From: a virus
Strand: one strand, 5' to 3'
Virus record (IMG/VR): IMGVR_UViG_3300037202_000169
Location: 1-28,385 of that record
Length of the DNA stretch: 28,385 nt
The position numbers and the translations under genes are program-made. Under the pieces are notes generated by a model. It searched no databases and was not told where the DNA came from. It saw only the letters and a list, made by a program, of their open reading frames with translations. Every line of letters begins with the position of its first letter. Position 1 is the stretch's first letter. Below, piece by piece: positions 1 to 18,431 of the stretch.

Positions 1-421
1 TGAGCGTGAAGGTGGCCGATGCCCCCGCGCGCCCAGTCGTGTTGCACGTGATCGTGATGCCAGGCGTGCCGATCCACTTCACATCCGTGTGGCCGACGCC
101 GTTGACGGAGTAATCGAGGGTGTTCCAGTCGGTCCAAGCGCTCTTGAGCGATTCCCATGCCTGAATGCCCTGCCACGTGATGTCGAAATCGAGCACAAGG
201 CCAGTGAGATCGCCGTCCGGGAGATACGAGAACAGCGGGTGGCCGAACGGATCGTCTTTCTGGAACAGGACTAGCACAGCGAAATCGGCCAAGTCGCGGA
301 ACACGCCGGACACGGTGAATCCGCTGTCGGACGCACCCCACAGTGCCGCAGCCGCGCCGTAATCGTCGAAGCCTTGCAGTGCCATCGTGCGATGCGGCTG
401 CAGCTTGTATATCTGGTCCAT
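1..421 (-). CDS. Tail-associated protein, 5' part only (cut by window edge)
   Basis: An open frame starts with ATG at 421 and runs off the left edge without a stop, giving 140 complete codons. It begins one base after the TGA of the tail-tip gene (TGA at 425-423), so it is almost certainly co-translated with it. The start reads MDQIYKLQPHRTMALQGF, followed by a stretch rich in Phe, Asp, Trp, Gly and Thr that looks like beta-structured tail or fibre material. I do not recognise a family. Position at the distal end of the tail operon suggests a receptor-binding, fibre or baseplate accessory protein, but this is inference from order only. Confidence 0.7.
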   Translation of the reverse strand, partial: MDQIYKLQPHRTMALQGFDDYGAAAALWGASDSGFTVSGVFRDLADFAVLVLFQKDDPFGHPLFSYLPDGDLTGLVLDFDITWQGIQAWESLKSAWTDWNTLDYSVNGVGHTDVKWIGTPGITITCNTTGRAGASATFTL

Positions 422-422
422 T

Positions 423-3400: not shown

Positions 3401-4841
3401 GCTGGTATTTCGTGACGTTCAGGTTGCCGTCAACCTTCAGCCCTTGCCAGGTGTAGCCATCCACCATCGGCGCCACCACGTATCGGTAGCCGTCGGCGTT
3501 TGTGACGACCATCGACGCGGCGAACCCACCGAGTGGCCCGGCGCTGAGAATGCCGAGCGAGTCGGCGTAGCCCGATTCGTCGCGGTACGCGACCATCAGC
3601 GCGCTGGCCATGAACGCATAGAGGGGATTGCCGCCGCTGTTGCACCAGATCTCCGGCAGCGCCAGCCCCCAGACCGTATCGGAGAGGATCGACGTTGCCG
3701 TGACGGTGTTGCGCCCGAGGCCGAGGAAGCCGGTGGAATCGTCCTTGATGACGACGCCCTGTGGGTCGGCCTGGTGCGCGCCGAAGTAGGGAGCCATGCC
3801 ATGCACCTGGCAACCGTTCGCCGATTCGAGGTAATAGTCGCAGCTTGTGGGATCGCCGCCAGCAGCCGTCACCGCCGCGGCGCTGCGCCCCTTCGCGGCC
3901 CACGGACAGTTCACGCCATCGTTGTAGGTCTTCCAGCACTGGCGGCTGAGTTGCCGCTCGGGGTACTGGTTCATGATCTGGAAGAACCCGTCCGAACACG
4001 TCACCGGGAAGATCGGCGTGCCATCGCTCGTGAAATTCTGAATCACGCCTTTCCAGAGTTGCAGCAGAATCCCGGAGTTCACATGGAAGAGGCAGAGATC
4101 GATCTCGGCGTACTTCAAGTCGGTGTCGTTGGCGAGCTGCGTCATCACGCGGTCGCCGTTGCCGAAGGTGAAGCGGACGTTATCGGAGGTGCCTTTGATG
4201 TCCTGGGAGATCAGGACGTCGGAACCCGGCTCGCCGATCCCGATCAGGCGCGGCAGGTATAGCTGGCCGCCGACTGTGACGCGGCGTTCGGAGACATAGA
4301 TGTCAGGGACCGCTGACTCGCGCACGCGGATATGGACCAGGGGGACGATCTGCTGGACTTCGGAAAGCAGTGCCGTGGACAGCGCGGTCGAGGGGAATCG
4401 CAGGCAGGTGGAGTTGACTGCGTATGTGGGGGCTTGTGTCGGATCGACGACTTCGATGAGATTCAACCCGACCTGGGCAGCGTTGCGGAGGTATTCAAAG
4501 GAGATTGGCGTCTGCTCGAAGGTCACCAGCACGCCCGTGGTCGAGCCGCCGGGATTGGGGACGTTGTAGGTGAAAGCCTTCCACGGTCCCTGCATAGCTT
4601 CCCAGAACGCCTTGAGCTGGTTCGTTTCGGCCCAGTTCAGGTTCTGGTGCTTGAACTGAAACTTGCGTGGGCCGATCCCGACGTAGTACCGCTGCTCCTG
4701 CTTGGCGTCGAGGCTGCCAAAGCGATGCACGATCACCGGGCGTTCGACGGAGAAGCCGAGCGGGTACTGCGTGGTGAGCGGGAATGTCTGGCCGGAGTTG
4801 ATCACCGTGGGGACGGCGATACGGCCGATGGTGTCGGGCAT
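423..4841 (-). CDS. Large multidomain tail-tip/baseplate hub protein
   Basis: A 1472-residue protein from ATG 4841. The frame is open to 5048, but the upstream part overlaps the end of the TIR gene, so 4841 is preferred although no clear ribosome site precedes it. Residues about 1-135 resemble DUF2460-like distal tail proteins (the stretch around NQLKAFWEAMQGPWKAF). Residues about 170-350 resemble the DUF2163/gpL-like tail domain and carry four cysteines at about 302, 312, 334 and 344. The middle contains LTEVLNCCLGFYTWEFGKLK, typical of hub proteins that form the tail tip. Further on are fibronectin-like beta segments (SAPSNIAIIG, then WPAVAGLVSYVLFV), and the last 100 residues look like a receptor-binding beta domain. 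It appears to combine functions that lambda splits between M, L and J. Domain limits are read by eye. Confidence 0.8.
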   Translation of the reverse strand: MPDTIGRIAVPTVINSGQTFPLTTQYPLGFSVERPVIVHRFGSLDAKQEQRYYVGIGPRKFQFKHQNLNWAETNQLKAFWEAMQGPWKAFTYNVPNPGGSTTGVLVTFEQTPISFEYLRNAAQVGLNLIEVVDPTQAPTYAVNSTCLRFPSTALSTALLSEVQQIVPLVHIRVRESAVPDIYVSERRVTVGGQLYLPRLIGIGEPGSDVLISQDIKGTSDNVRFTFGNGDRVMTQLANDTDLKYAEIDLCLFHVNSGILLQLWKGVIQNFTSDGTPIFPVTCSDGFFQIMNQYPERQLSRQCWKTYNDGVNCPWAAKGRSAAAVTAAGGDPTSCDYYLESANGCQVHGMAPYFGAHQADPQGVVIKDDSTGFLGLGRNTVTATSILSDTVWGLALPEIWCNSGGNPLYAFMASALMVAYRDESGYADSLGILSAGPLGGFAASMVVTNADGYRYVVAPMVDGYTWQGLKVDGNLNVTKYQPGMGLRYVAGSDPANPGTDYFSLGQGSPQVWEPNVYAAGTAACEIRIVKSTTIQPSTPDQHQMTVPIDYGMWGWTWDQNGNRTAVRGLINPFWIAVNMLLRAIGLYGDPSTGSNPAGGTGPTSFAQLATFVLPSLIVGDGSGAAEIAADQVAAILGTGVETQFQFQGIISSQKPFRDWLTEVLNCCLGFYTWEFGKLKLGCRINASAVDAYTLANSLFQSLRLTPIQAGFEHLVLSFADVAYQYQANTAEYCDKSHAAYYGRGGSPLTSQMHSVGCSSLSQALRIAATRTREEIGGVNPAEWRDARAAAWQTTLLGLGNEVGQVVSMTHPDIPGLHGTCNVTGTSVTWTSGDAFDTSMENKKVVINGVQVLITGYTTDPTYHTVTGLLLASAPGNGTNLSFQIITMSFRIQRWSLRKDWSVQIEGQTVTDSMYDLDVGPKPMDVVPGPLPPLFYSIPLGPAWAPYQVQAAANDALFPGEWTFDTNQSYAQLADGSMLANLVVTGKLPVNEFSATGAGAPGIGSISQSATGGSLPANVTLRVAICAVDSNGLPSAPSNIAIIGTGAAAGGAFTLEGITWPAVAGLVSYVLFVATQDDLICAQATGALTAGPNNTYTPGSITFGGPLVRSTWALPSPYVSKVRLKAKHLIHGGIIGAPVDSVSTGALVVGYLKGSPPSSNPSFTPVGRIISIIGRPESATPYFSATVTSWDSSTGTIGVTPDPNGIVQAGDCLVVRYNADTSNSANPTSITDSGCQNIAYPAGMTPGAEVGNLVRVLRGVSRGTPPRKITANTATTITWDLPMVINPGDVWIIEEPTWPYSCDTTSLDNGNPLAVTTINMPTGNFVDEALVIAGFTVDVNGNESPDGDAPIREDWVFGAEGLSKVAGLVFQMQGTLGVESNAAQPLYLNRPVTVGDVKAYVQAAPTGAAITFTIYVGGAAWLTLTIPTGQTAAVATPSQIGALAEIPANTAVSIGITAVGTTFPGSNLSVFIYS

Positions 4842-4920
4842 GGAGTGTGGAACCTGGCTTACGAGAGAGAGCTTCAGGGAAAGGGCGTCACTTGAGTGCA
4901 GGCGGGCCGGAGCCGCTAGC

Positions 4921-7900
4921 TCAGTTGTCGCATGTTGGTTCCAGCGAGAGGAGATGGACCCGTCCCGCATTGTCGCCAGCGACAATCCGGTGTGGACCCG
5001 AGAATGCGCAACACCGGACAGCTCCATCGCAGGTGAATGTTGCCACAACGGTGCCCGCTTCTAAATCCCACACCTTTACTGTCTTATCCCAAGAGGCGGA
5101 GACCGCACGCCGCCCGTCCGGGCTCACCGCTACCCCTTGGATAATCGCAGAGTGGCCTTTTAGAGTGCGCATTTCGCGACCCGCTTCCAGATCCCACACC
5201 TTCAGCGTTTTGTCAGCAGAAGTCGAAACCACACGACGCCCGTCCGGACTTACCGCTACAGCGATGACCTCGGCAGAGTGGCCTTCTAGTGTGCGCAGTT
5301 CAATGCCTGTTTCCAGATCCCACACCTTCAGCGTCTTGTCCTTGGAAGCCGAAACCGCACGCCGCCCGTCCGGGGTCACTACCACGCCCCAGACATGGTC
5401 GGAGTGGCCTTTCAAAGTGTGCAAGGCACGACCGGTTTCCAGATCCCACACTCTTAACGTCTTGTCCCCAGAAGAGGAAACCGCGCGACGCCCGTCCGGA
5501 CTCATAGATACTCCGTTGACATAGGAAAGGTGGCCTCGCAGAGTCCGCAGTTCACGACCCGTTTGCAGATCCCACACCTTCAACGTCTTGTCCCCAGAAG
5601 AGGAAACCGCGCGACGCCCGTCCGGACTCACCGCTACTCCAGTGAGATAGGAGGAGTGGCCCTCCAGCGTTCTTGAGACGCGGCCGGTATCCAGATCCCA
5701 GACCTTCAATGTGTGGTCCCAAGAGGCGGAGACTGCACGACGCCCGTCGGGGCTGACCGCCACAGCCCGAACATCAGAATAGTGGCCTTCTAATAAGGGC
5801 AGTTCGTAGTCGGCTCTCAGGTCCCACACCTTCAGCGTCATGTCCCCCGAGGCGGAGACCATCCGCCGCCCATCCGGACTCACTGCCACGCCCCTGGCAT
5901 CGCCAGAGTGGCCTTCTAACGTGCGAAGCTCGCGACCAGTTTCCAAATCCCACACCTTCAGCCTGTAGTCCCACGAGGCGGAAACCGCACTCCGACCTTC
6001 CGGGCTCACCACCACCGCCCTAACGGCTGAGGTGTGACCTCTCAACGTGAGGAGTTCGTAGCCGGTTTCCAGATCCCACACTTTCAGCGTGTGGTCACTA
6101 GACGCGGAAATTGCACGGTGTCCGTCCGGGCTCACAGCGACACCCAGGACCGAGTCAGAGTGGCCTTCCATCGTGAGCAGTTCGTGGCCGGTATCCAGAT
6201 CCCACGCCTTCAACGTGTGGTCACCAGAAGCGGAAACCGCACGGTGTCCGTCCGGGCTCACAGCCACGCCCAGGACCGAGTCAGAATGGCCTTCCAGCGC
6301 GCGCAGTTCGAGGCCAGTTTCCAGATCCCACATTTTCAGCGTCTTGTCCTCAGAAGCGGAGACCGCGCGATGCCCGTCCGGACTCACCGCTACCGCGCGG
6401 ACCGAGGCAGAGTGACCTCGCAAGGAATGGAGTTCGCGGCCGGTATCCAGATCCCAGACCTTCAATGTGCCGTCCTCAGACGCGGAAACTGCACGCCGCC
6501 CGTCCGGCGTCACTGCCACGCCCCAGACCTTGTCCAAGTGGCCCTCCAACGTGCGTAGGGCACGACCGGTTTCCAGATCCCACACCTTCAACGTCTCGTC
6601 CAACGAAGCCGAAACCGCGCGCCGCCCGTCCGGGGTTAATGCAACGCCATTGACACACCCAGAGTGGCCTTCCAGCGTACGGATCAGCGCTCCTCCCGGC
6701 GGATGCAGCGTGGGATGCAATAGTCGGAGCCAAGGACTGTGAATTCCTTGCGTGAGCGACGTCATGAATTGCTGAACAGCCGGAAGCCCCTCATGCGCTA
6801 GCAGACGCCCGACCACCTGCCCAGCAAATTGCCATGGATCTTTCTCGATGACGTTTGACGAGAGCCGCACGGCGCCACGGATCAAATCCAGTGCTTTGCG
6901 GTCCGGGTGCTGCGCGCGGATGTAATCGAGCTGCAGGTCGTGCAAGCGGATAATTCCACTCTCGAGGTCCCGCTGCGCCAGCGACCGGTCTGCGAGGTAC
7001 CGACTGATGCGCCGGGCTGCCGATTCGTCGACATTCCAGAGCGTTTCGAGGATCGGTAGCGGGGTCGGCATGTCCTCTAGCAGGATGGCTAACGCCTTGT
7101 ACCGCTCCTGCGCTTCCGTTGCGAGCGACTTGACGCTCACTTCGATGGCGCGGAAGAAGCTCTGCTGCCCTTCCGGAAGTTGTTCTTCGATGTCCGTGAG
7201 ATCCGCCCTGCGCAGCAGGTCCACCGTATCCGCCCATTCTGCCGGCGTTGCCCCGCGCAGCAATGCCCCGACCATCGACACAGCCAGGGGCAACTTGCCG
7301 CACTCGTTGATGATGTCATCGGCCGCGGGCGGAAGTGGGGCAGCCGCGCTGCCCGCCCAGAGCGCCAGGAGCTCGCGCGATTGCGGTTCGCTCAGAAGTT
7401 CGACCCTGTACTCACGCGCGTTGCTGAATCGGGCGATCGAAGCGTCCCTTGTGGTGAAAAGAAAGCGGGAACGGGCCGACTCGGCAAGGAATGGGTCGAG
7501 GTCGGTCTTGCTCCAGATGTCATCGATCACGATTAGAGCTGCTTTGTTAGCGATCATGGTCCGATACTGGTTCTCGGAGGCGACGTCGTTCTCGTAGCGG
7601 TTGACATCATCACCGAGCGCCTTTGCTATCTCGCGTATCCAGGTCCGAAGGTCATGGGTCCGCTCGCGGCCGACAGTGATCCACACGATGCCGTCAGGAA
7701 ACGCCTGCTGGACCACTTCGTCGCGGCATAACGCCTGCGCGAGGACGGTCTTGCCGATACCGCCCATGCCTTCGAGCGCTGTAAGCGCGATGGCGGGGCA
7801 CGCATCGGCGGCGAACAGCGTGTCGCGGAGGGCGCGAATTGCTGCCGGCCGCTCCACGTAGTTCGCCACCATCGGAGGAGCAGTTACATAGGTGACGCGC

Positions 7901-8337
7901 GTCGAACAATAGCCTTCGGACAGCGCGACGCCGTTGCGCCGCTCGATATCGCCGAGCAGGTCCCGGAAGGGCTTGGCGTAGGTGGGCTCGGACGCGAAAT
8001 CGCGGTAGTTCTTTGATTCGAGGTGCAGGGGAATGTCGGACCTTGGCGCGGCGAGCACGGGAATAACGCACTTGCCCTTGCGGAGGGAACGAAGCTGCTC
8101 GGCGCGGCAGATTTCCGACCGATAAGACGCCGGGGTCAGCAGCGCTAGAACAACATCCGACGCGTCGATTGCGCTTTCGATGGCTACGGTCCAGGACTCT
8201 CCTCCGACAATGTCCTCGGTGTCAAGCCAAGCGTCAAAGCCCTTGGCTGCGAGGTCCCGCTGGAGCCGCTGCGCCAGTTGCGCTCCGTCTTTGCGGGCGT
8301 ACGAGATAAAAACGCTGATGCCCTTTTGCCTGGCCAT
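4921..8337 (-). CDS. TIR / NB-ARC (STAND) / WD40-repeat protein, putative phage-defence sensor-effector
   Basis: A 1138-residue protein of three parts. Residues 7-135 are a TIR domain (VFISYARKDG start; SYRSEICRAEQ, where E80 sits at the position of the catalytic glutamate of NAD-cleaving TIRs). Residues about 160-480 are an NB-ARC-type STAND NTPase: Walker A GMGGIGKT at 190-197, Walker B LIVIDD at 268-273, FLFTTRD at 292-298, CGKLPLA at 346-352 and an LHD motif at 465-467. Residues 553-1138 are thirteen 42-residue WD40 repeats plus one degenerate repeat, fitting two seven-bladed propellers. By family knowledge, the propellers or adjacent helices sense a ligand, the NTPase oligomerises and TIR depletes NAD. 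The gene lies between two tail genes in their orientation, with 193 bp in front of it, so it looks like a moron. The start ATG 8337 has a weak GAGTG-type ribosome site. A non-defence signalling role is possible. Confidence 0.9.
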   Translation of the reverse strand: MARQKGISVFISYARKDGAQLAQRLQRDLAAKGFDAWLDTEDIVGGESWTVAIESAIDASDVVLALLTPASYRSEICRAEQLRSLRKGKCVIPVLAAPRSDIPLHLESKNYRDFASEPTYAKPFRDLLGDIERRNGVALSEGYCSTRVTYVTAPPMVANYVERPAAIRALRDTLFAADACPAIALTALEGMGGIGKTVLAQALCRDEVVQQAFPDGIVWITVGRERTHDLRTWIREIAKALGDDVNRYENDVASENQYRTMIANKAALIVIDDIWSKTDLDPFLAESARSRFLFTTRDASIARFSNAREYRVELLSEPQSRELLALWAGSAAAPLPPAADDIINECGKLPLAVSMVGALLRGATPAEWADTVDLLRRADLTDIEEQLPEGQQSFFRAIEVSVKSLATEAQERYKALAILLEDMPTPLPILETLWNVDESAARRISRYLADRSLAQRDLESGIIRLHDLQLDYIRAQHPDRKALDLIRGAVRLSSNVIEKDPWQFAGQVVGRLLAHEGLPAVQQFMTSLTQGIHSPWLRLLHPTLHPPGGALIRTLEGHSGCVNGVALTPDGRRAVSASLDETLKVWDLETGRALRTLEGHLDKVWGVAVTPDGRRAVSASEDGTLKVWDLDTGRELHSLRGHSASVRAVAVSPDGHRAVSASEDKTLKMWDLETGLELRALEGHSDSVLGVAVSPDGHRAVSASGDHTLKAWDLDTGHELLTMEGHSDSVLGVAVSPDGHRAISASSDHTLKVWDLETGYELLTLRGHTSAVRAVVVSPEGRSAVSASWDYRLKVWDLETGRELRTLEGHSGDARGVAVSPDGRRMVSASGDMTLKVWDLRADYELPLLEGHYSDVRAVAVSPDGRRAVSASWDHTLKVWDLDTGRVSRTLEGHSSYLTGVAVSPDGRRAVSSSGDKTLKVWDLQTGRELRTLRGHLSYVNGVSMSPDGRRAVSSSGDKTLRVWDLETGRALHTLKGHSDHVWGVVVTPDGRRAVSASKDKTLKVWDLETGIELRTLEGHSAEVIAVAVSPDGRRVVSTSADKTLKVWDLEAGREMRTLKGHSAIIQGVAVSPDGRRAVSASWDKTVKVWDLEAGTVVATFTCDGAVRCCAFSGPHRIVAGDNAGRVHLLSLEPTCDN
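5044..6681 (-). repeat. Thirteen tandem 126-bp repeats encoding WD40 blades
   Basis: Thirteen in-frame units of 42 codons, each carrying a GH, a SPDG or TPDG turn, an SAS-type strand and VWDL. Recurring plus-strand words such as cgcccgtccgg and tccagatcccacacctt make the repetition visible in the DNA itself. A fourteenth unit at the C terminus has lost the WD and GH signatures. The units are much more alike than blades of old housekeeping propellers, which suggests recent amplification or gene conversion. Confidence 0.9.
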
Positions 8338-8530: not shown

Positions 8531-8953
8531 CTACACTTCCGCCACCTCCATCAATTCCAACCCCTGCACATTAGACCGCGCGACGTCTGTGCTCTGCGCC
8601 CAGTTGCCGCGGAAGACCACCGTCACGCGTCCCTGCGTGTTGTTGCCGGTCGGATCGTAGTTGCTTCCGATCTGCTGGCCTGATGCCACGTCGCACGGGT
8701 TGTAGAAGGCGAACGGGGTCAGACCGGCGTTCTGGGACACCCAGAAGTTGTATAGCGCCGAGAGCACTGAAGCGCTCAGGCGCTTGCTGAGCCGGAACGT
8801 CCGGCGCGAGGTCTGCGCAAGCTGCGACCGCTGGATTGTGCCATCGTGAAACTCGTTCTGGAGTTGAGCGTATTCGCGCAACTCCGTGAATGCGGTGCAC
8901 AGCGAGGCCGGCATCACCCCGTTGGGTTCGGATTGTACGAGATTGCCTGGCAT
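8531..8953 (-). CDS. Distal tail / minor tail protein
   Basis: A 140-residue protein starting with ATG 8953, seven bases after the tape measure stop. It contains LSASVLSALYNFWVSQNAGL followed by TPFAFYNP, the pattern (hydrophobic helix, then aromatic strand ending in a Pro/Asp turn) seen in small tail proteins such as lambda gpM and DUF2460-like distal tail proteins. The same kind of segment opens the 1472-residue tail-tip protein. Position directly after the tape measure is where the first tail-tip component is normally encoded. In the usual arrangement the hub gene would follow directly, but here the TIR gene intervenes. Confidence 0.7.
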   Translation of the reverse strand: MPGNLVQSEPNGVMPASLCTAFTELREYAQLQNEFHDGTIQRSQLAQTSRRTFRLSKRLSASVLSALYNFWVSQNAGLTPFAFYNPCDVASGQQIGSNYDPTGNNTQGRVTVVFRGNWAQSTDVARSNVQGLELMEVAEV

Positions 8954-8959
8954 TCGGGA

Positions 8960-11900
8960 TCACGCTACGGTCAATCCGGGCAACTGCATGTTGGCCGACT
9001 GCTGCGTCCGCCCGTAACTCGAATACTGGGCAGCCATCGCTTGGTCGGTCACGAACTGCGGTGTCACAAACTGGCCGGTCATGAAGTTCGCCGCGTCGGA
9101 GCCGCTGATGTTCAGCGACATGTACGTCGCGCCGGTACCACCTGCCGTGTTCGGGTTGCCCGGAGTCGGATAGGTCCCGGCTGCGATCCCGCCGAGCGTC
9201 GGGATGTTCGAAGCGTAGACGTGCGCTTGGCCATCCTGGTAGCTCGCTTGTTGATAGAGCTTTCCGCCTTGCTCCACCAGACTCCCCGCGTACGGCGTCG
9301 TGGCGGATAGCGGCATCTTCTGGCCGGTGGCTTCCGAGTACAACATCACGAGTTGACGCACGCTGGGGGATCGCACCGCCACCGCGATCTGGCCGCCGAA
9401 CTGCGACTGCGCGATCTGGACCACCTGTTTGATCGTGCCGCTGTTCTGGGGAATATCGACACCGTAGATGCTCTTGATGTCGTCGTGTGCCTCCCTCTGC
9501 GGAGACTTGACGCCGGCTATCATCTCTCCGATGCCAATGCCGAAACCGGCGGCGCCGCCAATCAGCGCGCCCAATGGGCCGCCCATCTGGAACCCGATGG
9601 CCGCCCCACCAGCCGTCCCTTCCGCTGTGCCCGTCCATGTGCCACGGCTGTTCCCGAGCAGCCCTTGTTGCGCAAGCATGGTACCGCCGGCCAGCATCGC
9701 GGCCCCAGCCACGCCACCTACTCCGGTGATCTTGCCGCCGGAATCTCCGGTTTGGACGTCGTTGCCGTTTTCATCTGTGCCGTAGGTCGGATTAGACGGG
9801 CTCCGCTTGAAACTCCCCCAGTTCGTGCTCTTGAAGTTACTGACGATTCCCGCCAGACCGCTCGGCCCACTCCCACCAGCCGCGCCGCCGCGCGCACCGC
9901 CGAACAGCAGAGCCAGGGGATTGAATCCGCCCGTCCCGCCCTGCGCCCGAGTCAACGTCGTCGCGCCCGCCGATGCGCCGGACCAATCTCCGCCGCCAGC
10001 AGCCCAAGGAGCGGGAGTATAACCACCGGTGGCCGCGCCAGACGAAGAGTGATCCGTCCCCCCGACCTCCGCTCCACCGCCAGCCGCGCCGGAGCCGCTA
10101 CGCGTGCTTCCGCCGAACAGCATTGCCATCGGGTTGAATCCGACACCACCGGAACTCCAAGGAGCGGGGGAATAGCCGCCCGCCCCCATGGGCGCGCTCA
10201 TCTTGGCCGGCGCAGAGATCGATGGAATGGAAATCCCCAAGACGCCAGCAGCACCGGCAGCACCACTCTGCAAGGAGGGAGCAGCCACTCCCATGCCTGC
10301 GGCCAGGATAGCCGTCAACGCCGCCATCACCGCGCTGTTCTGCATGGTCGCGGCGGTGTTCTGGTCAGTGGACACGCGTACCGGGTCCTGCTTGCCGCCC
10401 TTGAACACACCAGCGAACCCGCCCTGACCATCCGCGCCGTAGATGATCGGACGGAGGACGTTCGCCGCCATGCCGCCCAGCGTCTCGGTCACCGGCTTGA
10501 GCACCGCGGCGTGGACCGTACTCAGCAGATCCTTGCCGAAGTTCTTGGGCTTGGTGAACAGAACGTCGATCAGCTTTTCTGCCTGCTTCTGGAGGCTGTC
10601 GAACTGCGACTGGATCTCCTGCTGGCGTTTCTGTTGGAGCTGCGCCTGCTTTTCCTCGAGCTGGTCCTGCGCCTGGGCGATTTCCGTGTACAGATCCTTC
10701 TGCGCCTGCGCCGCCAGCACGGAGCGCTTCGCCGCGTTCTCTTCTTTCGATATCCGCTCCGCTTCGATGCCCGCCAACTGGACGGCCAGATCGAGCCGGA
10801 TCTGGTAGGCTTGTTGCGCCGCCGCCTCTTCCTTTCGCGCCGACAACTCCCGCTTTTCCGCCTCAGACATGGCCATCGGCGTTTCCTGGCCGGCGGTCAG
10901 TTCCGCCATCCGCGCGGACCGCGCGGCGCGCCGCCGCAATTCATCGCGCTGCGCCTGGACTCCGATGTCCTCGATCCGTTCCTGCGCGGCGAAGCCTTCC
11001 TCCCACTCCTTCATCTGCTCTTTGCTCGGCATCATGAGCGCGAGCATTTTCTTCTGCTGCTCGGCCGCTTGCTTGTCGGCGTACTTTTCGAACTCCTCCC
11101 ATGCCTTTTTCGAGAGCACGGCCGCCTGCTCGTCCGCCGCCTTGCGGATCGCGGCAATCTCCGATTCCGACGCCTTCACCTTCGCGGCCTGCTGCAGAAG
11201 CTGGTCGCGCTGATAGTAGATTTTGCCGATCGCGTCAAGCTCGGCCTCATCGCCCTTCTTCTCGAACTCGGCCGCCTGGCGACGGAAATCCTTGAGCTGC
11301 TCCGCGCCCTTTGCCACCGCGTCCAATGCCGCCTTGCGGCGCGCCTCGGTAGCTTCCGCAGTGTGGAGTTGTTGGCCCAGATCCTGTGCCTGAGCCTTCG
11401 TCAACGGCTTGTCGGGTTCGAGCAATTGCTTCTGGAGCCGCTCGACATCCTTCTTGGCATCGGCGTAAGCCTTCTCCATGCCATCGTGCGTGCCGAAGAA
11501 CCGGGCGCGAATGCGATCCGTTTCTTCCTTGCCTGCACGCAGGTCTGTCCGCTTGGTGGCCGCCTCGGCATCCTCCAGCATCTTCTGCAACTGCTGGATT
11601 TGGCCCTGGATATCGCTCGCGCGCTTCGCTCGGGCCTCCTCGTCGCGGGTGGGCGCAATCGCTTGCAGGATGCCGAAATCGCCGACCAGCCCTTGCTGTT
11701 GGACCCGCAAATCCTCGATGCGCTTCAAGGTGGCATCGCGGTTCTTCATGATGTCCGGCGCCCGGCGTTCCAGGTCGGCCACTTCCTGACGATGACCGGA
11801 GATCGACATCTTCGCCCCAATGCCGCCCGCCGCCCGAATGTCTGCGGCGTCCTGCATCGCCTGTTCCTCTTCGCGGCGCTGCCGTTCATCGTCTCCGGCG

Positions 11901-13036
11901 GTGCTGATGTTATTTAGGAACCAATCGACGCCCTTACCGACCCATGTCACGGTGACGACCAGCCCCTCTTTGAACTTGCGGACCAGCGCGTCCCACTTGG
12001 TTTCGAGCACGGTCACTTCACGCTGGTATTCGGCAAAGCGGCGAATGTCCTCCTCGGTCGGCCCGAAACCCTGCTCGTGGGCGACGCGCAGGTTCTCGTT
12101 GAGTTCCGTCATGAACGGAATCGCCTCCACGCCCACCTTCTTGAACAGGTCCATGGCGGCGGCGTCCCGCTGAAGGCCTTCCGGGAGCTTGTTCAGACCC
12201 TCGGAGATCTCCGTCAGAATCTCGGAGGTGGGCTTCATCTCTCCCGTGGCGGTGTGGAAATCGATGCCCATCCCGCGCAAGGTAGCCCGCACCTTTTCGC
12301 CTTCCCTGGAATTGTCGTCAGCCGCCTGGGACAAACCACGCATCAGGCGCTCGACAATCGAGATGTCCTGCCCGACCGCGCGCGCCGCGAAGCCGAACTG
12401 CCCGACTTCCTTCGCGGTCAAGCCGGTGCGCAGTTCCGCGTCCTTCACGCGGGTGCCGTATTCGCCGAGACTCTTTGCGGCCTCGAATGCGGACGCCGCA
12501 ATGGTGCCCAATACAGCAGCACCGGCAGTGACAGCAATGCCAAACGGACCAAGAGCGGAAAGCACCGACGAGAGTGCGCCCTTCGCACCCTGGAGCGGAT
12601 TCTCCATGAACTGGCTAACCCGGTCGCCGAACGACTGGATGGATTCGGCCTGCTTCCGCAGGGCTTCCTCAGCTTCCTTGGCCGCCTTGACCGCGAGAGC
12701 TTCGCGCGCGGCCTTCTCCTCCATGGCGATCATCTTTTCGTAAGATCTGGTGATCGCGTCGATGGCCTGCGGCTCGCGGTTGTATCGCTGCAAAAGCTGG
12801 TCCCGCTGCGTAATCAGCCGCTCCACGCCGCTCTTGCCATAGGTTTCAGCCTGCTTTTCGAGGGAGGCGATGAGCCGCTGGACCGAGGACCGGGTCTGAT
12901 CCGAGATCCGGATGACCTTGCCGTGCGACGATTCCGCTTTCTTCTCGAAGCCGTCGAGCGCGGCGTTGGCCTTGTCCGTTATCGGGGTGACCTGGTCCTC
13001 GGCTTCGAGGATTACGCGTTCCGCTTGGTCTGCCAT
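8960..13036 (-). CDS. Tail tape measure protein
   Basis: A 1358-residue protein that sets tail length and is expected to pass into the host membrane on DNA injection. The first 160 residues and the region about 370-800 are charged coiled coil rich in Ala, Glu, Lys, Gln and Arg. Hydrophobic segments occur near residues 160-195 (LGPFGIAVTAGAAVLGTIAA) and in the C-terminal third (MLAGGTMLAQQGLLG; GGPLGALIGGAAGFGIGIGE). Between these is a Gly/Ser/Pro-rich linker with a duplicated PAPW...FNP..LLFGG motif. The start ATG 13036 lies just downstream of the stop of the preceding gene (TGA 13040-13038), which indicates translational coupling. It is the longest structural gene after the hub and sits where expected. 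Confidence 0.9.
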   Translation of the reverse strand: MADQAERVILEAEDQVTPITDKANAALDGFEKKAESSHGKVIRISDQTRSSVQRLIASLEKQAETYGKSGVERLITQRDQLLQRYNREPQAIDAITRSYEKMIAMEEKAAREALAVKAAKEAEEALRKQAESIQSFGDRVSQFMENPLQGAKGALSSVLSALGPFGIAVTAGAAVLGTIAASAFEAAKSLGEYGTRVKDAELRTGLTAKEVGQFGFAARAVGQDISIVERLMRGLSQAADDNSREGEKVRATLRGMGIDFHTATGEMKPTSEILTEISEGLNKLPEGLQRDAAAMDLFKKVGVEAIPFMTELNENLRVAHEQGFGPTEEDIRRFAEYQREVTVLETKWDALVRKFKEGLVVTVTWVGKGVDWFLNNISTAGDDERQRREEEQAMQDAADIRAAGGIGAKMSISGHRQEVADLERRAPDIMKNRDATLKRIEDLRVQQQGLVGDFGILQAIAPTRDEEARAKRASDIQGQIQQLQKMLEDAEAATKRTDLRAGKEETDRIRARFFGTHDGMEKAYADAKKDVERLQKQLLEPDKPLTKAQAQDLGQQLHTAEATEARRKAALDAVAKGAEQLKDFRRQAAEFEKKGDEAELDAIGKIYYQRDQLLQQAAKVKASESEIAAIRKAADEQAAVLSKKAWEEFEKYADKQAAEQQKKMLALMMPSKEQMKEWEEGFAAQERIEDIGVQAQRDELRRRAARSARMAELTAGQETPMAMSEAEKRELSARKEEAAAQQAYQIRLDLAVQLAGIEAERISKEENAAKRSVLAAQAQKDLYTEIAQAQDQLEEKQAQLQQKRQQEIQSQFDSLQKQAEKLIDVLFTKPKNFGKDLLSTVHAAVLKPVTETLGGMAANVLRPIIYGADGQGGFAGVFKGGKQDPVRVSTDQNTAATMQNSAVMAALTAILAAGMGVAAPSLQSGAAGAAGVLGISIPSISAPAKMSAPMGAGGYSPAPWSSGGVGFNPMAMLFGGSTRSGSGAAGGGAEVGGTDHSSSGAATGGYTPAPWAAGGGDWSGASAGATTLTRAQGGTGGFNPLALLFGGARGGAAGGSGPSGLAGIVSNFKSTNWGSFKRSPSNPTYGTDENGNDVQTGDSGGKITGVGGVAGAAMLAGGTMLAQQGLLGNSRGTWTGTAEGTAGGAAIGFQMGGPLGALIGGAAGFGIGIGEMIAGVKSPQREAHDDIKSIYGVDIPQNSGTIKQVVQIAQSQFGGQIAVAVRSPSVRQLVMLYSEATGQKMPLSATTPYAGSLVEQGGKLYQQASYQDGQAHVYASNIPTLGGIAAGTYPTPGNPNTAGGTGATYMSLNISGSDAANFMTGQFVTPQFVTDQAMAAQYSSYGRTQQSANMQLPGLTVA

Positions 13037-13037
13037 T

Positions 13038-13496
13038 TCACGCTGCCTTGAGCATCACGAAGGGACGAGCCTGAAATGCCGCGAGCACGGACTGGCGGTC
13101 GCGCGGCGATACACCCCACTGCGCCTCGCGCCGGTTGTTGAAGGCGGCGATCTGCGAAGCCGTCAGCCGCCGGCCTGGAAGAGCTTCGTCCAGGAACCCG
13201 ATCGCCGCGCGATTCTCATTTGCGGTCAGTACTTTGAGACACCTGAGGGTGTGACCGCTCCAGGTCCAATCGCGGATCGGCTGGAGACCGCGCGCCGCCT
13301 TGTAGTCGGGATAGCCGCGGCGGCCGGACAGTCCCGGCTTCAGCGGCGCCGCCGCCTGATCGTAGATGTTCCGCCCGCTCTGAATGCGCGCCCGGATCGA
13401 GTCCGCCAGCACCTGCGCGAAGCCCTGCATTTCCGTGGCGGTGTAGGGCGAATAAACGAAGCGAGCGCGTTTGATTACGGTTTGAAAGTGAGCCAT
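13038..13496 (-). CDS. Small tail or morphogenesis protein upstream of the tape measure
   Basis: I chose ATG 13496, giving 152 residues beginning MAHFQTVIKRARFVY. The frame stays open to 13676, but those 60 upstream residues are Arg/Cys/Ser-rich without recognisable structure. The protein has an N-terminal segment like small tail-component proteins and a C-terminal part with WSGHTLRCLKVL and RREAQWGVSPRDRQSVL. I do not recognise a family with confidence. Position between the chaperone genes and the tape measure suggests a minor tail or virion-morphogenesis protein. The ribosome site is weak (AGAAG a few bases before the ATG). Its upstream neighbour in an ordinary phage would be the chaperone gene now separated by the HEPN cassette. 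Confidence 0.6.
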   Translation of the reverse strand: MAHFQTVIKRARFVYSPYTATEMQGFAQVLADSIRARIQSGRNIYDQAAAPLKPGLSGRRGYPDYKAARGLQPIRDWTWSGHTLRCLKVLTANENRAAIGFLDEALPGRRLTASQIAAFNNRREAQWGVSPRDRQSVLAAFQARPFVMLKAA

Positions 13497-13817
13497 GGCT
13501 GGCTTCTGCGAGCAGCGGCGCTGTAAGGCAAGTGGTCGTCCGGAACAGACGGTAAACGGCACCGGTAGGGGGCTCCGACGTGACGCGGACTTCGCAAGAC
13601 CGATGTCACCAGAACGCCGTGCCTGAACGGTTTTGTGAAAAAGACCGAGATGACTACACGGTCCGATGACCAGCAAACAGCCGCCCGGAAATGGCCACGT
13701 CCATCCGAACCGTCAATATCGATAAGGACCTATCAACGAACCCCGCTTCTGACCAGACGACTGCAGCCGCAGCCCACTTGAAACAACAACACAGCAACTT
13801 CTTTTCGGGTTCCCAGC
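13497..13817. other. 321-bp gap downstream of the HEPN gene
   Basis: No convincing gene is present. The only open stretch is the in-frame extension of the next tail gene up to 13676. There is no hairpin followed by a T-run to terminate the HEPN transcript. A TTGACG hexamer lies on the minus strand near 13710, but the hexamer 17 bases downstream (CATTTC) is a poor -10. A gap this long is unusual in an operon otherwise packed with overlapping genes and fits a scar left by insertion of the cassette. Confidence 0.4.
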
Positions 13818-14894
13818 TCACTCAGCGGGTCGCGCCTGGTCCCCATTGACTTGGCTGTAGACGTGGGACACGAGAAGGGCCATAGCTTCGCACAGTCGGT
13901 TCCAGTTCACTCCTCTGAATGAGAACTTTCGGTGAAACGGACGGTAATGAACAAGCGCATTCCTAAGCTGATAGATTCTTCTCGCTACGCACTGCGCACT
14001 CCTGGCACCTTCTGGGACTATTTCGCTCAAAGCCGCCATGACCGCCTGCAAGTGCTCAGGCGCTGCACCGTCCAGCAAGGCCTCCAAGCTTGGCTCCTCA
14101 CGCGGATACCATCCGAGCGTCTCCTCGAGCGTTTGAGCCATCTCAGCCCACGGTTTCGAAATCTGTACGGCAGTCATCAACTGCCGCGTGAGGGTAAGCG
14201 CGTATAAGGCCTCCAGGCATCGATAAAGGGCCAAAAACAGGGCGCTGGGGTCCATATCCAAAATGGAGCGACATAGGGTTTCATAAGGAATGGAGCCCGC
14301 GCTTAAATGTGTCACTGAAACAAGTACCTGGCCAAGTTGCTCGTCGATCCACTGTTCAGCGCGTCGATCGGAAAGGCATATGAGGAAGAACACCTTAGAT
14401 GATTCGTCGATCAGCAAATCCGGGACAGAAAACACGCGGATCTTCGGGAACAGGCCTGAAACCAAAAGCGGATCGTGCCCCCCGTAACCAGGAGTCGACG
14501 TCTTGTCCGCGTATTCCACAATATTCCGTATTTCAGACGCACTGGCGGCTGGGCTCGGCCTGACCTCGGACAAGAACGCTGTCAGAATGCCCCCGTGTAA
14601 TTCTTCAACCTCAAGTGCCTTGGGAGGCTCCAGGACGTCAAGCCCGGACGTGACAAAGAATGCTCGATTGGAAAAGTCAAACCGAGCAATCTTTACCACG
14701 GTAGAAAGGGCCAACTCCGCAACCAGTGTGGCATTCATTAGGAATTGCCTCTCTGAGCCGGTCGTGCTTATCCAGCGGGGTTGGCCGGCGTTCGAGATGG
14801 GTTCCGCACAACTGGTACAGTAATCATCCAGCGCGGTGAACAGCGCAGTATTGGCCGCTATCATGTTGCGGGACGGCATTAACCGGCTCGCCAA
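13818..14894 (-). CDS. HEPN-domain protein, putative RNase of a two-gene cassette
   Basis: A 358-residue protein if read from the TTG at 14894, which has GGAG five bases upstream. The ATG at 14879 forms a TAATG stop/start overlap with the upstream gene and is an equally good start. The C-terminal 60 residues carry ARRIYQLRNALVHYRPFHRK. Here R311-N-A-L-V-H316 is the R-polar-x3-H motif of HEPN ribonucleases, followed by a long helix (NRLCEAMALLVSHVY), as in ApeA-like HEPN domains. Residues 1-290 are not recognised: they hold strands with a CTSC pair near residue 27 and a helical middle. By family knowledge, such HEPN proteins cut RNA in abortive infection or toxin-antitoxin systems. GC content is lower than in the tail genes. 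It could instead be a non-catalytic HEPN, but both key residues are intact. Confidence 0.7.
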   Translation of the reverse strand: MASRLMPSRNMIAANTALFTALDDYCTSCAEPISNAGQPRWISTTGSERQFLMNATLVAELALSTVVKIARFDFSNRAFFVTSGLDVLEPPKALEVEELHGGILTAFLSEVRPSPAASASEIRNIVEYADKTSTPGYGGHDPLLVSGLFPKIRVFSVPDLLIDESSKVFFLICLSDRRAEQWIDEQLGQVLVSVTHLSAGSIPYETLCRSILDMDPSALFLALYRCLEALYALTLTRQLMTAVQISKPWAEMAQTLEETLGWYPREEPSLEALLDGAAPEHLQAVMAALSEIVPEGARSAQCVARRIYQLRNALVHYRPFHRKFSFRGVNWNRLCEAMALLVSHVYSQVNGDQARPAE

Positions 14895-16078
14895 CAGGGC
14901 TCCATGTTCGGAACATCGAACCCTTCGTCGATTAACACTTTAAAGGCTTCGTTAAATACTGAGCGTTCGTATCTACCGACCTGACCGACCTTCTTGTCAA
15001 GAACCTCGCTTAGGACGTCCAGCTTTAAGAACTCTCCGAGCTTGGGGATGTCTAGCTTGCACAGCCTAGTCTTCAAAACGCCGGCGTTCTTCGCGATCGA
15101 TTTCATGCGCGCTGCTCGGTCGTCAGAGCTTCGTTCAAGCCCGGGCCTGCCGACAACGTGTTGTGCGACGGCAACTACAAAGCCAATGCGGGCGGGCTGA
15201 CTTCCAAAGATGTCCTTGCCTCTTGAGAATCGCCGGCTCGTACGCTCCTCGTACCGGTCGAAGCAGATGTCGAGGTCGACCAGTGTCGATAGAGTCTGGT
15301 AAAAGTGGCCTTGAAATGCGTCATCCGAAAGATTGTCAACAAAATCGAGCCTAGAGAATTCTTCCGACAGCGACTCGCGCGGGTCAATGTTCGTCTTGCG
15401 CAGCGAGAACGCCAAATACAACTCGACCAGAGAATCAGAGCTGAATTGGCCGCCGCCTACCCGACGTCCCGGTTTGTCTGGCGTAAAGATCCGCTCAAGG
15501 TTCTTGACGTTCTTTTTTATTTCCTGAAGTAGCGGGGCATATACGACAGAAAGTTGACGGGCGAGGGTCCATGGAACCTGTCCTGTATTCAGGACCAACA
15601 TTCGATAAATCAATGCGCGGACGGACTGGGCGACCCAAAACTCGACCCTCATTTCTCGGGCGAACACACTTGGATCTATGCTTCCAGCCTCAATTAGGGA
15701 CGCCGTGCGTTGCATACCATCGATGATGGAAAGTTCCTTCTCGGAAATGCTGCCAAGAAAGGCCTCCTGAGAGACCGGTTTGTCGTCCGTTAGGATCGCG
15801 GCGCTCGCCTTATCGACCACCACTCCGATTACCACAGGCGGAAGAACGGCTCCGGCACGAATGTCGGAGATCATCCGATCCCGAATCCGTTTCGCCGTCG
15901 TCGTCTTGAGAACGTCACGTTGTCCGGTGATACCGCCGCGCTGCTCGTGCGCATCCTTGACGAGTTTCAAGTACGCGCCCGTTGGGAGTTTCAGAAGCGC
16001 CGAAAAGCACTCGGTTCGATGGTCCTGAAGCCAATCCATTTGCGGCGCGCCGGGAGGAGCTGGTGCCTTTTTTGCCAT
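14879..16078 (-). CDS. DGQHR/DndB-like protein (ParB-like fold), partner of HEPN protein
   Basis: A 399-residue protein from ATG 16078, preceded by AAGGAAATACCA. Residues about 45-90 (QRD...RIRDRMISDI...LPPVVIGVV) and 117-135 (SIIDGMQRTASLI, D120-G-M-Q-R124) follow the layout of DGQHR-domain proteins such as DndB: a short helix, a PP strand and the DG.QR motif. LVLNTGQVPWTLARQLSVVY at 161-180 matches the NxTQ.P...L segment that follows in that family. The C-terminal 200 residues are helical and not recognised. DGQHR proteins are known from phosphorothioate and deazapurine DNA-modification systems, but no modification enzyme is encoded here. It overlaps the HEPN gene, which implies coupled translation and a joint role as regulator, antitoxin or sensor. 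Confidence 0.7.
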   Translation of the reverse strand: MAKKAPAPPGAPQMDWLQDHRTECFSALLKLPTGAYLKLVKDAHEQRGGITGQRDVLKTTTAKRIRDRMISDIRAGAVLPPVVIGVVVDKASAAILTDDKPVSQEAFLGSISEKELSIIDGMQRTASLIEAGSIDPSVFAREMRVEFWVAQSVRALIYRMLVLNTGQVPWTLARQLSVVYAPLLQEIKKNVKNLERIFTPDKPGRRVGGGQFSSDSLVELYLAFSLRKTNIDPRESLSEEFSRLDFVDNLSDDAFQGHFYQTLSTLVDLDICFDRYEERTSRRFSRGKDIFGSQPARIGFVVAVAQHVVGRPGLERSSDDRAARMKSIAKNAGVLKTRLCKLDIPKLGEFLKLDVLSEVLDKKVGQVGRYERSVFNEAFKVLIDEGFDVPNMEPCWRAG

Positions 16079-16229
16079 TGGTATTTCCTTGGGTGACCTA
16101 TGTAGCCTATCTGAATTCTCGCATCGTTTACGCCGCCGTGCTAACGGCTGGACAGTTAACGCCGTCCTGGACGGGTGTCCCTCAGTCGCCAGGAATAGGT
16201 ACGTCGTGTGGCAAACGGGTCTTCACCAG
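16079..16229 (-). promoter_or_regulatory. Leader of the DGQHR-HEPN cassette
   Basis: This 151-bp gap separates the chaperone gene stop from the cassette. It becomes AT-richer towards the cassette and contains the perfect dyad CCGTCCAGGACGG at about 16160-16172 (plus-strand view: ccgtcctggacgg). On the minus strand, TTAACT about 70-80 bases before the ATG and the TAGGCTACAT region closer to it could form a weak promoter, but spacing and match are poor. Presence of a leader here suggests expression independent of the late tail operon. Confidence 0.3.
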
Positions 16230-16592
16230 CTACCGCGAACTCGTATTGCCGCCCTCGGACTTAGTCTGCTCCTGACGCTCCGTCTCGATCAACTCCAGCA
16301 CCCGGAATTCCTCCTCAGTGATGTCCGCGAGCGTGATCGTTAGCCCGATATTCTTGGCGTTCAGAATGCGGAAACACCGCCGCACCAGCGTGCCGTTCGG
16401 CGTGTCCATCGCCTCTTCGAGCAGGTTCTTTGGACAGGCCGGCCCATGGCTGACGTCGATGGCCTTCCAATCCGCGCCGCAGGCGGGACAGCCATCCAAC
16501 TCCGTCTGGGCCGAGTAGCCGCACCGTCGGCAACGGAAGATGCGGTCGGGACAATCTTCGTCAGGCCCACACAGCCCGCCCTGGTGCAGCAC
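16230..16592 (-). CDS. Zinc-ribbon protein in the place of the tail chaperone T frame
   Basis: A 120-residue frame from GTG 16592. Its N-terminal part has six cysteines: C8, C14 and the ribbon C21-x2-C24 with C35-x2-C38 (FRCRRCGYS...GCPACGADW). Its C-terminal part (NAKNIGLTITLADITEEEF) resembles the second half of tail-assembly chaperones of the lambda G/GT type. It lies in the -1 frame relative to the preceding 195-residue frame, as expected for a frameshifted T extension. The open frame reaches back only to 16661, overlapping the upstream gene by 16 bases, and no standard slippery heptamer is visible there. A GGAGGA sequence near 16626-16621 would allow independent initiation instead. Start is therefore uncertain. 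Confidence 0.65.
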   Translation of the reverse strand: MLHQGGLCGPDEDCPDRIFRCRRCGYSAQTELDGCPACGADWKAIDVSHGPACPKNLLEEAMDTPNGTLVRRCFRILNAKNIGLTITLADITEEEFRVLELIETERQEQTKSEGGNTSSR

Positions 16593-16645
16593 CGACCGGA
16601 TTAGGAAGCGAACGCCCGGCTCCTCCGGCCAATCGCCGGGCGCGG

Positions 16646-17233
16646 CTATTCCGGGTCTTCGTCAGCCTCGATGGCCAGTTGCGCGATGACCTCGGACACG
16701 GCGGCCGACTTGTGCACAATCGGCACCGCACAGGCATAGCCATCGTGCGAGATGTGCAGCTTGTCGTAGAGCGCGCCGCTCGGCTCCAGGAACGCGCGCG
16801 TCTCGACCGACCTCCGCGCGGCCACGACGCTGGTCGAAGCCCGCTCATGGTCCTGCATTTCCTTCGCGGTTGGCATCCGCAGCACATGAACTACTCTCGT
16901 GCCAGGGATCTTCATCTCGATCCTGTAATTGATACCTTCGCGCTCGACGTTGGCCACGGCGCACCGCTCGATGCGGCCGATCACCATGCCGGCCTCGGCA
17001 TCATCGAAGGCAGGGCCGTCCTTATCCGTGCGGATCTTGGCGAACAACTCCGCGTTGATCTTCGGCAGGTCCACGTCCTCGCTCTGCGATTTCCCGCGCC
17101 CCAGGAAATGGCGCACGGTGCGCTGCGCGCGGGCCCACACGCACCACTCCTCGTCCGAGGGGAACCGCACCTCGCAGCTTTTCTCGCCGCCCGACAGGAT
17201 CGGCACCACGAACGGCTTACTCGCGTCAAACAT
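16646..17233 (-). CDS. Tail assembly chaperone, G-like
   Basis: A 195-residue protein from ATG 17233, preceded by AGGAGACTTGA. It follows the tail tube gene by nine bases, the standard slot for the chaperone that keeps the tape measure and tube subunits competent for assembly. The sequence is mixed alpha/beta (FVVPILSGGEKSCEVRFPSD at the start, VIAQLAIEADEDPE at the end) with no catalytic motif. Assignment rests mainly on gene order and on the following -1 frame gene. Similarity to lambda gpG itself is not visible by eye. Confidence 0.6.
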   Translation of the reverse strand: MFDASKPFVVPILSGGEKSCEVRFPSDEEWCVWARAQRTVRHFLGRGKSQSEDVDLPKINAELFAKIRTDKDGPAFDDAEAGMVIGRIERCAVANVEREGINYRIEMKIPGTRVVHVLRMPTAKEMQDHERASTSVVAARRSVETRAFLEPSGALYDKLHISHDGYACAVPIVHKSAAVSEVIAQLAIEADEDPE

Positions 17234-17242
17234 TCAAGTCTC

Positions 17243-18271
17243 CTATTGGCAGATGCCCTGTAGCGGCGTGGTGACGGTCATTGTCACCATGCCGTTGGTG
17301 GGGTCGTAAAGCTGAACGCCGGTGATCTGGAGCGTCACGATACCGTCAGTGTTCCCCAATTCGGCGACGTTGAAGCCCATCTTCTGGATGAGCATCGTGA
17401 AGGAATTATTGGCGTCGCGGGTCATGGTGAACGTGGCCGTGCCGGTCGTGAGGTTGATCAGGTTCGCATACTCGGTCGACCCCGCTTGCACGCGCACCAC
17501 GAACTGCACCGCAAAGGCGCGGTCACCCCACTCGAAACGCCCCTGGATCTGGTAGCCATCCTGAGCTCCCGACCCAGGGAAGAAGCCGGGCCGGAAGTTG
17601 TTTTCCCAGGAAGCTTCCATCGACACGAACTGCTTGGCACTGCCGCCGGTAAGATAGTTGATGCCGTTGAACGTCAGGGCGCTGATCATGCCGGCATTGA
17701 ATTCATGCGGCGTGGAGATCGCCGGCAGCGTGATGCCGCTTGGCGAAGTGTACTGGCCGGTGGTGACGCACTCCACCGCGCACATCGCACTGGCGCGGCC
17801 TGGAGAGTTCTTGATGGAGAGCTTCCAGCCCTTGACGGCGCAGCCCACCAGCATTTCGTCCAACACCGCCGACCCGCCGGGCCGGATCTGTTGCACGAAC
17901 GAGAAGTAGGGCAGCTCCAGGCCGGTCGGGTTCGTCGCTCCCAGGGCCGGAACGATGGTGTAAACGTACGGACCGCTACCGCTCACGACGACGTTGCCCA
18001 TGGAGAAGGACAGCGCCCACGCGAGGAACTCCGACGAGGCATACTTCGAGAGCTCGTAGGCCGGCATGTTGTAGTGCGACTTGAAAAGCTGGGTCGGGAA
18101 CTCGTGCCCCTTGCCGATTTCCGCCCGGTCATCCTCGTTCACGGGGACCTTCGCCCACGGTTTGGTATTGAGATTCGTGTGACGCCAGATGGTCGCCACC
18201 AAGTTGGCCGTTCCAATGGCGGTCTGTTTGCCGAATCCCCAACCGTTCAGCAGTTCAGTGATGTTAGCCAT
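17243..18271 (-). CDS. Major tail tube protein
   Basis: A 342-residue protein starting MANITELLNGWGFGKQTAIG. The start ATG 18271 overlaps the stop of the preceding 55-residue gene (ATGGCTAA), and the frame upstream of it is not needed. The length, the beta-rich Gly/Thr/Ser composition and strands such as DRAFAVQFVVRVQAGSTEYA and GIVTLQITGVQLYDPTNGMV fit tail tube proteins that polymerise around the tape measure. It sits between the tail terminator and the chaperone pair. No sheath gene follows, which argues for a non-contractile tail. Two segments (ASWENNFRPGFFPGSG, GYQIQGRFEWGDRA) resemble the tube-fold strands of this protein class. Confidence 0.75.
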   Translation of the reverse strand: MANITELLNGWGFGKQTAIGTANLVATIWRHTNLNTKPWAKVPVNEDDRAEIGKGHEFPTQLFKSHYNMPAYELSKYASSEFLAWALSFSMGNVVVSGSGPYVYTIVPALGATNPTGLELPYFSFVQQIRPGGSAVLDEMLVGCAVKGWKLSIKNSPGRASAMCAVECVTTGQYTSPSGITLPAISTPHEFNAGMISALTFNGINYLTGGSAKQFVSMEASWENNFRPGFFPGSGAQDGYQIQGRFEWGDRAFAVQFVVRVQAGSTEYANLINLTTGTATFTMTRDANNSFTMLIQKMGFNVAELGNTDGIVTLQITGVQLYDPTNGMVTMTVTTPLQGICQ

Positions 18272-18431
18272 GCTTTTCCTCCTCAGCCACAACTACCGGC
18301 TTGTGCGCCGCCGCCGGCGCGGGAACCTGATGCCATCCAGAGGACATCCACGGTGAGAGTTTCTCCGCAGTCGCCTCAATTTCCTTGATCTCATCGCCTT
18401 GAGGCGACCGAAGAAATACCATTTCCGCCAT
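18264..18431 (-). CDS. Small conserved-position phage protein, 55 residues
   Basis: The frame reads ATG GCG GAA ATG GTA TTT from 18431 and ends with TAA at 18266-18264, overlapping the tail tube start by eight bases (ATGGCTAA). The protein is MAEMVFLRSPQGDEIKEIEA, then a TAEKLSPWMSSGWHQV segment and an Ala/Pro/Glu-rich tail. A motif of charged strand followed by a GWxxV end is common in tiny proteins encoded beside tail tube genes, but I cannot name a family. It begins 22 bases after the tail terminator stop, and a ribosome-site-like GAGGAAGAAG precedes it. The overlap strongly suggests a genuine translated gene. Confidence 0.65.
   Translation of the reverse strand: MAEMVFLRSPQGDEIKEIEATAEKLSPWMSSGWHQVPAPAAAHKPVVVAEEEKHG

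Follow-up and report, generated by a model that had tools for sequence, protein, structure and literature searches.

The two overlapping genes at positions 13818-16078 of the window, by which we mean the whole stretch of DNA analysed (28,385 bases, positions 1-28,385 of the IMG/VR virus record IMGVR_UViG_3300037202_000169), constitute, to judge from family profiles, a divergent form of the anti-phage system Dazbog (DzbA–DzbB), and they lie in a hypervariable accessory cargo hotspot of a temperate soil siphophage lineage. We consider it quite probable that the pair is a working anti-phage system, with DzbA as sensor and DzbB as RNase, and part of the accessory cargo of a temperate lambda-like siphophage, a reading directly supported by homology, linkage, co-divergence, active-site conservation, predicted fold placement and cargo status at a hotspot. 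The features of the region are as follows:

8960-13036, minus strand: tail tape measure gene (PHROG 12506, E = 1.8e-8).
13038-13496, minus strand: conserved tail gene of 152 amino acids, downstream border of the hotspot, 71-96% identical in relatives.
13497-16229, minus strand: cargo hotspot interval in the window, 2733 bp, holding the Dazbog pair; same junction compared in 69 relatives.
13818-14879, minus strand: dzbB-like gene, 353 amino acids from ATG, with a predicted C-terminal HEPN RNase domain.
14879-16078, minus strand: dzbA-like gene, 399 amino acids, ATG start, DUF262/ParB-fold with DGMQR core; predicted sensor/NTPase.
16230-16592, minus strand: conserved tail gene g120, upstream border of the hotspot, 69-92% identical in relatives.

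The two open reading frames, their DGMQR/LNTGQVPW and RNALVH motifs and the overlap of the genes, on which the initial annotation was built, were all confirmed on the minus strand. The first protein (399 residues) contains IIDGMQRT and VLNTGQVPW, while the second carries YQLRNALVHY about 43 residues before its C terminus. The ATG of the second gene and the TAA stop of the first have one base in common (TAATG), and this ATG, at 14879, is a more likely start than the alternative TTG at 14894 (13818-14894), which would give a protein of 358 rather than 353 residues. The lower G+C noticed earlier also holds, with values of 0.52-0.58 over the pair and its borders against about 0.62-0.65 on either side, i.e., a foreign composition within the tail operon. 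No promoter was recognisable upstream of dzbA, and a search of the cassette for promoters, terminators and border repeats returned nothing convincing.

Based on gene content established by family search, the minus strand of the window corresponds to the structural operon of a lambda-like siphophage (small and large terminase, portal, protease-capsid, cement, head-tail attachment, tail genes and tape measure); at the DNA level, no phage of the annotated collection resembles it. Two overlapping small ORFs (16230-16887), for which no family match was obtained, stand upstream of the pair at the position of tail assembly chaperones, and the order downstream is the small tail gene (13038-13496), then the tape measure. 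The earlier description of the pair as sitting alone between a chaperone pair and the tape measure overlooks a tail gene on the downstream side. This downstream tail gene likely starts at the ATG at 13496, since a TTG start reaching 13676 is probably spurious, the relatives matching from residue 61 only. An integrase or resolvase is present in 14 of the 29 larger contigs of relatives, and the phage lineage is therefore temperate, at least in part. In the same tail region, a protein of 1138 amino acids (4921-8337, minus strand) shows at least 13 WD40 repeats (Pfam WD40, E = 2.8e-144), which is unusual for a phage, and represents a possible receptor-binding or adhesion part.

Dazbog reportedly comes originally from Millman et al. 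2022. The first protein of the window matches the PADLOC profile of DzbA (PDLC03835) over nearly its full length (E = 1.3e-42, residues 17-398), as well as PHROG 27603 (E = 9.5e-164), and the second matches the profile of DzbB (PDLC03836) weakly (E = 1e-4), this match being confined to residues 208-316 of the 358-residue form. The initial annotation knew of no named system with just this pair, which proved wrong, because PADLOC names the pair and Dazbog had already been published. The N-terminal ~200 residues of the window DzbB fall outside the match to the PADLOC model and differ from model Dazbog; the trigger may differ too. Among the forms tested, the best PADLOC scores for Dazbog belong to plasmids of Moritella (L006) and Pseudomonas (L007), whose high-scoring DzbB also has RxxxxH, like the window DzbB. 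In the DzbA tree, the window falls in a clade apart from these two plasmids, with Azospira (L010) and Janthinobacterium (L011) as its nearest neighbours. Of the 49 members of the DzbB clade, 36 match PDLC03836 at E <= 0.01. The current DzbB model covers the divergent clade poorly. As for function, Dazbog has published anti-phage activity (PMC10952713); it does not defend unless its DUF262 gene is present, and phage methylases are triggers, the mechanism not being settled there (PMC10952713, PMC12409349). A defence role, as first proposed, is supported by this kinship.

The motifs D-G-x-Q-R and Y-R-M-L-x-L-N-x-x-Q-x-P-W are invariant in 49 DzbA homologues, among which GmrSD_N matches 42 at E <= 0.1 (best E = 2.6e-6), the window protein itself scoring 14.4 bits, below the Pfam cut-off of 33.2. 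The DndB profile matches 13 of the 49, weakly, and the Pfam scan found no DndB match in the window DzbA. The top Foldseek neighbours of the AlphaFold model (pLDDT 88.5) are BrxU, SspE and the ParB-like PadC (E = 0.08-0.8, none significant), which are all of the same broad fold class. Altogether, DzbA is predicted to carry a ParB/DUF262 (GmrSD-like) DGxQR core that is akin to DndB but distinct from it. Of the label “DGQHR/DndB-like” given initially, the ParB/DGQHR-type family is supported, but the core of the protein is nearer to DUF262/GmrSD_N than to DndB. Membership in the DndB/phosphorothioation group was discarded, as there are no dnd genes, the neighbours are phage structural genes and the match is weaker than that to DUF262.

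In the alignment of 49 DzbB homologues, whose identity to the window protein goes down to 15%, E223, R306, N307 and H311 are the only invariant columns, and the mean column identity is 24%, against 39% for DzbA (49 homologues each). The motifs are not due to chance, since R306, N307 and H311 in DzbB and D-G-x-Q-R in DzbA are invariant across 49 homologues of each protein. In its published definition, a HEPN domain has Rx4-6H where helix 3 ends, a polar residue (mostly N, D or H) after the arginine and an acidic residue in helix 2 (PMC3710099). In the AlphaFold model of DzbB (pLDDT 95.3), R306 is found near the end of helix 294-310, with H311 just beyond, then a loop and a final helix (326-348), and E223 belongs to a helix (211-223) ahead of the one carrying R306. 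DzbB hence displays Rx4-6H with the polar N307, an upstream helical E223 and the motif at the junction of helix and loop. Across the 49 members, the Pfam scan returned weak matches to HEPN_Apea in 13, along with several other HEPN families, the window DzbB scoring under the HEPN_Apea cut-off. A profile comparison between the C-terminal part of DzbB and separately collected HEPN_Apea proteins gave a probability of 60.6% (E = 8e-5), against 0.1-0.2% for control regions (the N-terminal part of DzbB and DzbA). Because the Foldseek search of the model against PDB and viral models returned no significant match, the HEPN fold is argued here from motif, profile and topology, on which basis the C-terminal domain of DzbB is a predicted HEPN RNase. 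The original HEPN assignment thereby gains support, and, of the structure and profile checks suggested with it, motif placement and profile comparison agree with it while Foldseek yielded nothing significant. In three loci (L066, L067 and L101), the DzbB ORFs reach 640-650 amino acids, about 300 residues longer than usual, and overlap the end of dzbA, which reflects either a reading frame that happens to run on upstream or a genuine additional domain.

An alignment-based scan recovered 80 loci in bacterial genomes (including Proteobacteria, Actinobacteria, Cyanobacteria, Bacteroidetes and Firmicutes), together with 16 loci from viral contigs, to which plasmids add 10 records. Where enough sequence was available downstream of DzbA (100 loci), 89 loci show DzbA followed by a DzbB-type protein with R[N/C/H]xxxH, usually within a gap of about 50 bases, and the motif lies ~43 residues before the end of these partners. 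Recurrence of the gene pair in other genomes, proposed from the outset as a check, is thus observed, in linked order and in many phyla. In several of the 11 exceptions, the motif turns up past a frameshift or in a different reading frame, and three (L024, L026 and L036) appear to be DzbA without DzbB. Moreover, the pairwise distances of DzbA and DzbB are correlated (r = 0.88, the best of 2000 shuffles reaching 0.31): the two proteins co-diverge. Annotated phages gave no matches at E <= 1e-5, nor did a single-sequence search of viral contigs, in which relatives came up by alignment search only; a search for the DzbA family within one phylum returned 2 of 398 genomes, one of them being the genome used as centre. 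In a P2-like phage (L090), a tail completion gene and a tail fibre gene flank a DzbA 58% identical to that of the window, together with its partner; the presence of Dazbog in late operons is therefore not limited to the lineage of the window. On plasmids, cytosine methylases adjoin several DzbA homologues. In particular, on the Roseobacter/Sulfitobacter plasmids L002, L003 and L009, DzbAB is found near a cytosine methylase gene, which is odd for a system whose presumed trigger is methylation.

From these data, we infer how the system could operate, from its trigger and activation step to its RNA target, the killing and the expression from the prophage, with DzbA as sensor and DzbB as activated RNase. 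Briefly, DzbA, whose DUF262/ParB fold belongs to a class with members that hydrolyse nucleotides and sense modified DNA, would detect an invading phage, the trigger most likely being either phage DNA that is methylated or modified in another way, or a phage methylase. Once triggered, it would activate DzbB, the C-terminal HEPN domain of which would then cut RNA and stop the cell ahead of the multiplication of the competing phage. The death of the infected cell would benefit the resident prophage, and the phage lineage would swap such defence-like genes at the cargo hotspot between its two tail genes.

At face value, two overlapping genes with the effector in second position might also be a toxin-antitoxin module, in which DzbA would hold the HEPN toxin DzbB inactive and its loss would free the toxin, thus stabilising the phage in its host. 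HEPN toxins are indeed common in such modules. Nevertheless, we regard this explanation as unlikely, given that DzbA is both larger and more conserved than DzbB, that its invariant DGxQR core is unlike typical antitoxins and that the published Dazbog relative defends against phages and needs its DUF262 gene. Thus, between the two roles initially considered for the first protein (to sense or to restrain), restraint is without support and a sensor-effector arrangement fits better. We give still less credit to the idea that DzbA is a type IV (GmrSD-like) restriction enzyme acting on modified DNA, with DzbB as a mere helper. Its DUF262/GmrSD_N kinship, its top structural neighbours BrxU and SspE (not significant, as stated above) and the cytosine methylases beside several plasmid homologues all point that way, but the Pfam scan of DzbA found no DUF1524 nuclease domain, and it is DzbB that holds the strictly invariant catalytic residues of HEPN type.

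The sensor-RNase reading of the pair as accessory cargo also draws on its location. Judged by its terminase and by the tail protein encoded at 17243-18292, the phage has many close relatives in IMG/VR. The distance from g120 to the following tail gene could be measured in 69 loci: its median is 1271 bp (range 39-6734), it exceeds 500 bp in 65 of them, and the borders are conserved (flanking genes 69-96% identical in relatives). Sorted by content, 69 intervals (those of 68 relatives and of the window) make up 59 groups with almost no sequence in common between groups, and the G+C of the interval is below that of the flanks in 68 cases out of 68 (mean 0.560 vs 0.621). In L155, the site is empty, the two tail genes directly adjoining. 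None of the relatives examined carries Dazbog, and comparing the junctions by position revealed no conserved border sequence. The other junctions of the operon are nearly constant in length, except for the one that follows the tape measure (8953-8960 in the window), a less pronounced second variable site where 7 of 45 relatives have insertions of more than 500 bp. That the hotspot escaped the initial annotation is explained by the latter having worked from one sequence. We found no account of this tail-operon hotspot among the open-access papers covered by our search. The comparison also makes it very improbable that the phage needs the pair for its own growth, as tail or counter-defence genes, instead of carrying it as cargo that protects the host: it does lie within the tail operon and on the same strand, but unrelated genes or nothing replace it in all close relatives examined, its G+C is lower and its homologues occur on plasmids and bacterial chromosomes.

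Regarding the other occupants of the site, a PADLOC scan of 95 cargo ORFs matched 159 families (E <= 1e-5), of which many are mutually redundant methylase models, the top matches being type II methylases (6e-100) and CARF proteins (4e-67). By reading of the sequences, L135 (8817-15220) encodes an HD-like protein, an ATPase, a CARF-like protein and a cytosine methylase, and L160 (5341-10518) a DNA methylase, a kinase-ATPase and a CARF-like protein; these operons are seemingly two related but rearranged systems. Three further occupants were checked by search: an ATP-binding protein in L137, three of whose plasmid relatives have a cytosine methylase beneath the matching stretch, an ATPase in L132 that is akin to ATP-binding proteins of BREX and, in L183 (12053-14148), an FRG-domain protein followed side by side by a DUF262 protein, which could be a second sensor-effector-like pair built on DUF262. 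The hypothesis that this DUF262 protein is a direct homologue of DzbA was dropped, and the two are handled as separate DUF262 proteins, because their one-to-one comparison gave only E = 0.004, outside the core. In L148, L151, L162 and L189, a DUF262 protein is encoded elsewhere in the contig. Other occupants are not evidently defensive, i.e., a radical SAM protein (L128), propeller proteins (L146, L149) and a pentapeptide protein (L145), many cargo ORFs match no assigned family, and many may be spurious, above all those on the minus strand. The site is therefore an accessory hotspot, and a likely defence hotspot. The radical SAM (SPASM-like) protein of L128 (12364-13785) is accompanied by a small ORF downstream, possibly forming a peptide-modifying system. 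We put forward, as a tentative proposal with somewhat less than an even chance of holding as a whole, that the site is a large undescribed anti-phage reservoir in a widespread temperate soil phage lineage, the system differing in nearly every phage, and that more than one of these systems follows a plan of DUF262 sensor and varying effector, the latter being HEPN for the window and FRG for L183, with Dazbog itself being a DUF262-gated HEPN RNase.

Dazbog, HEPN effectors in prophages, phage defence hotspots and late-operon morons are already known. HK97 gp15 is one such late-operon moron, also located in the tail gene region. Tab of phage JBD26 is an anti-phage cargo gene among late genes (PMC10884400). 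Both are single small genes, unlike the window site, which takes up to 6.7 kb. Small variable loci between two conserved phage genes are likewise found in P2/P4 phages, where antiviral hotspots of ~1-5 kb show fast turnover and diverse defence systems (Rousset et al. 2022, PMC9122126), but these are located near cos, in the cI-integrase interval, etc., whereas the window site is internal to a tail operon, in a siphophage lineage unrelated to theirs. The staphylococcal prophage defence protein Tha, a demonstrated RNase, is also prophage-borne with a C-terminal HEPN carrying RNxxxH (RNSIMH), but it is a single protein with a tail-protein trigger and no DUF262 partner (PMC11087260).

With model Dazbog, the window pair shares the two genes, their order and approximate sizes, the near full-length homology of DzbA and the RxxxxH of the C-terminal domain of DzbB; it differs by its separate DzbA clade, the unmatched N-terminal ~200 residues of DzbB and its place in a phage late operon. 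PD-T4-2, which is said to be from Vassallo et al. 2022, is possibly an independent combination, the comparison with the window pair being by description only. Both DUF262 and HEPN are listed for it, i.e., the same combination of parts as in the window pair, in a domain review that does not list HEPN for Dazbog (PMC10952713).

Dazbog was previously a two-gene system of unclear mechanism, and, with the invariant residues of the predicted HEPN domain, two mutations suffice to test its effector step. In addition, the hotspot provides fixed anchor genes for collecting dozens of unassigned candidate defence genes from metagenomic phage contigs, while cargo inside an operon that builds virions raises the question of how a killing RNase would stay silent or get expressed there. 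Finally, in the 85.6-kb record IMGVR_UViG_3300048503_000180 (L124 and L190), the tail region of the phage is present twice with differing hotspot cargo, corresponding either to tandem prophages or to a joined assembly.
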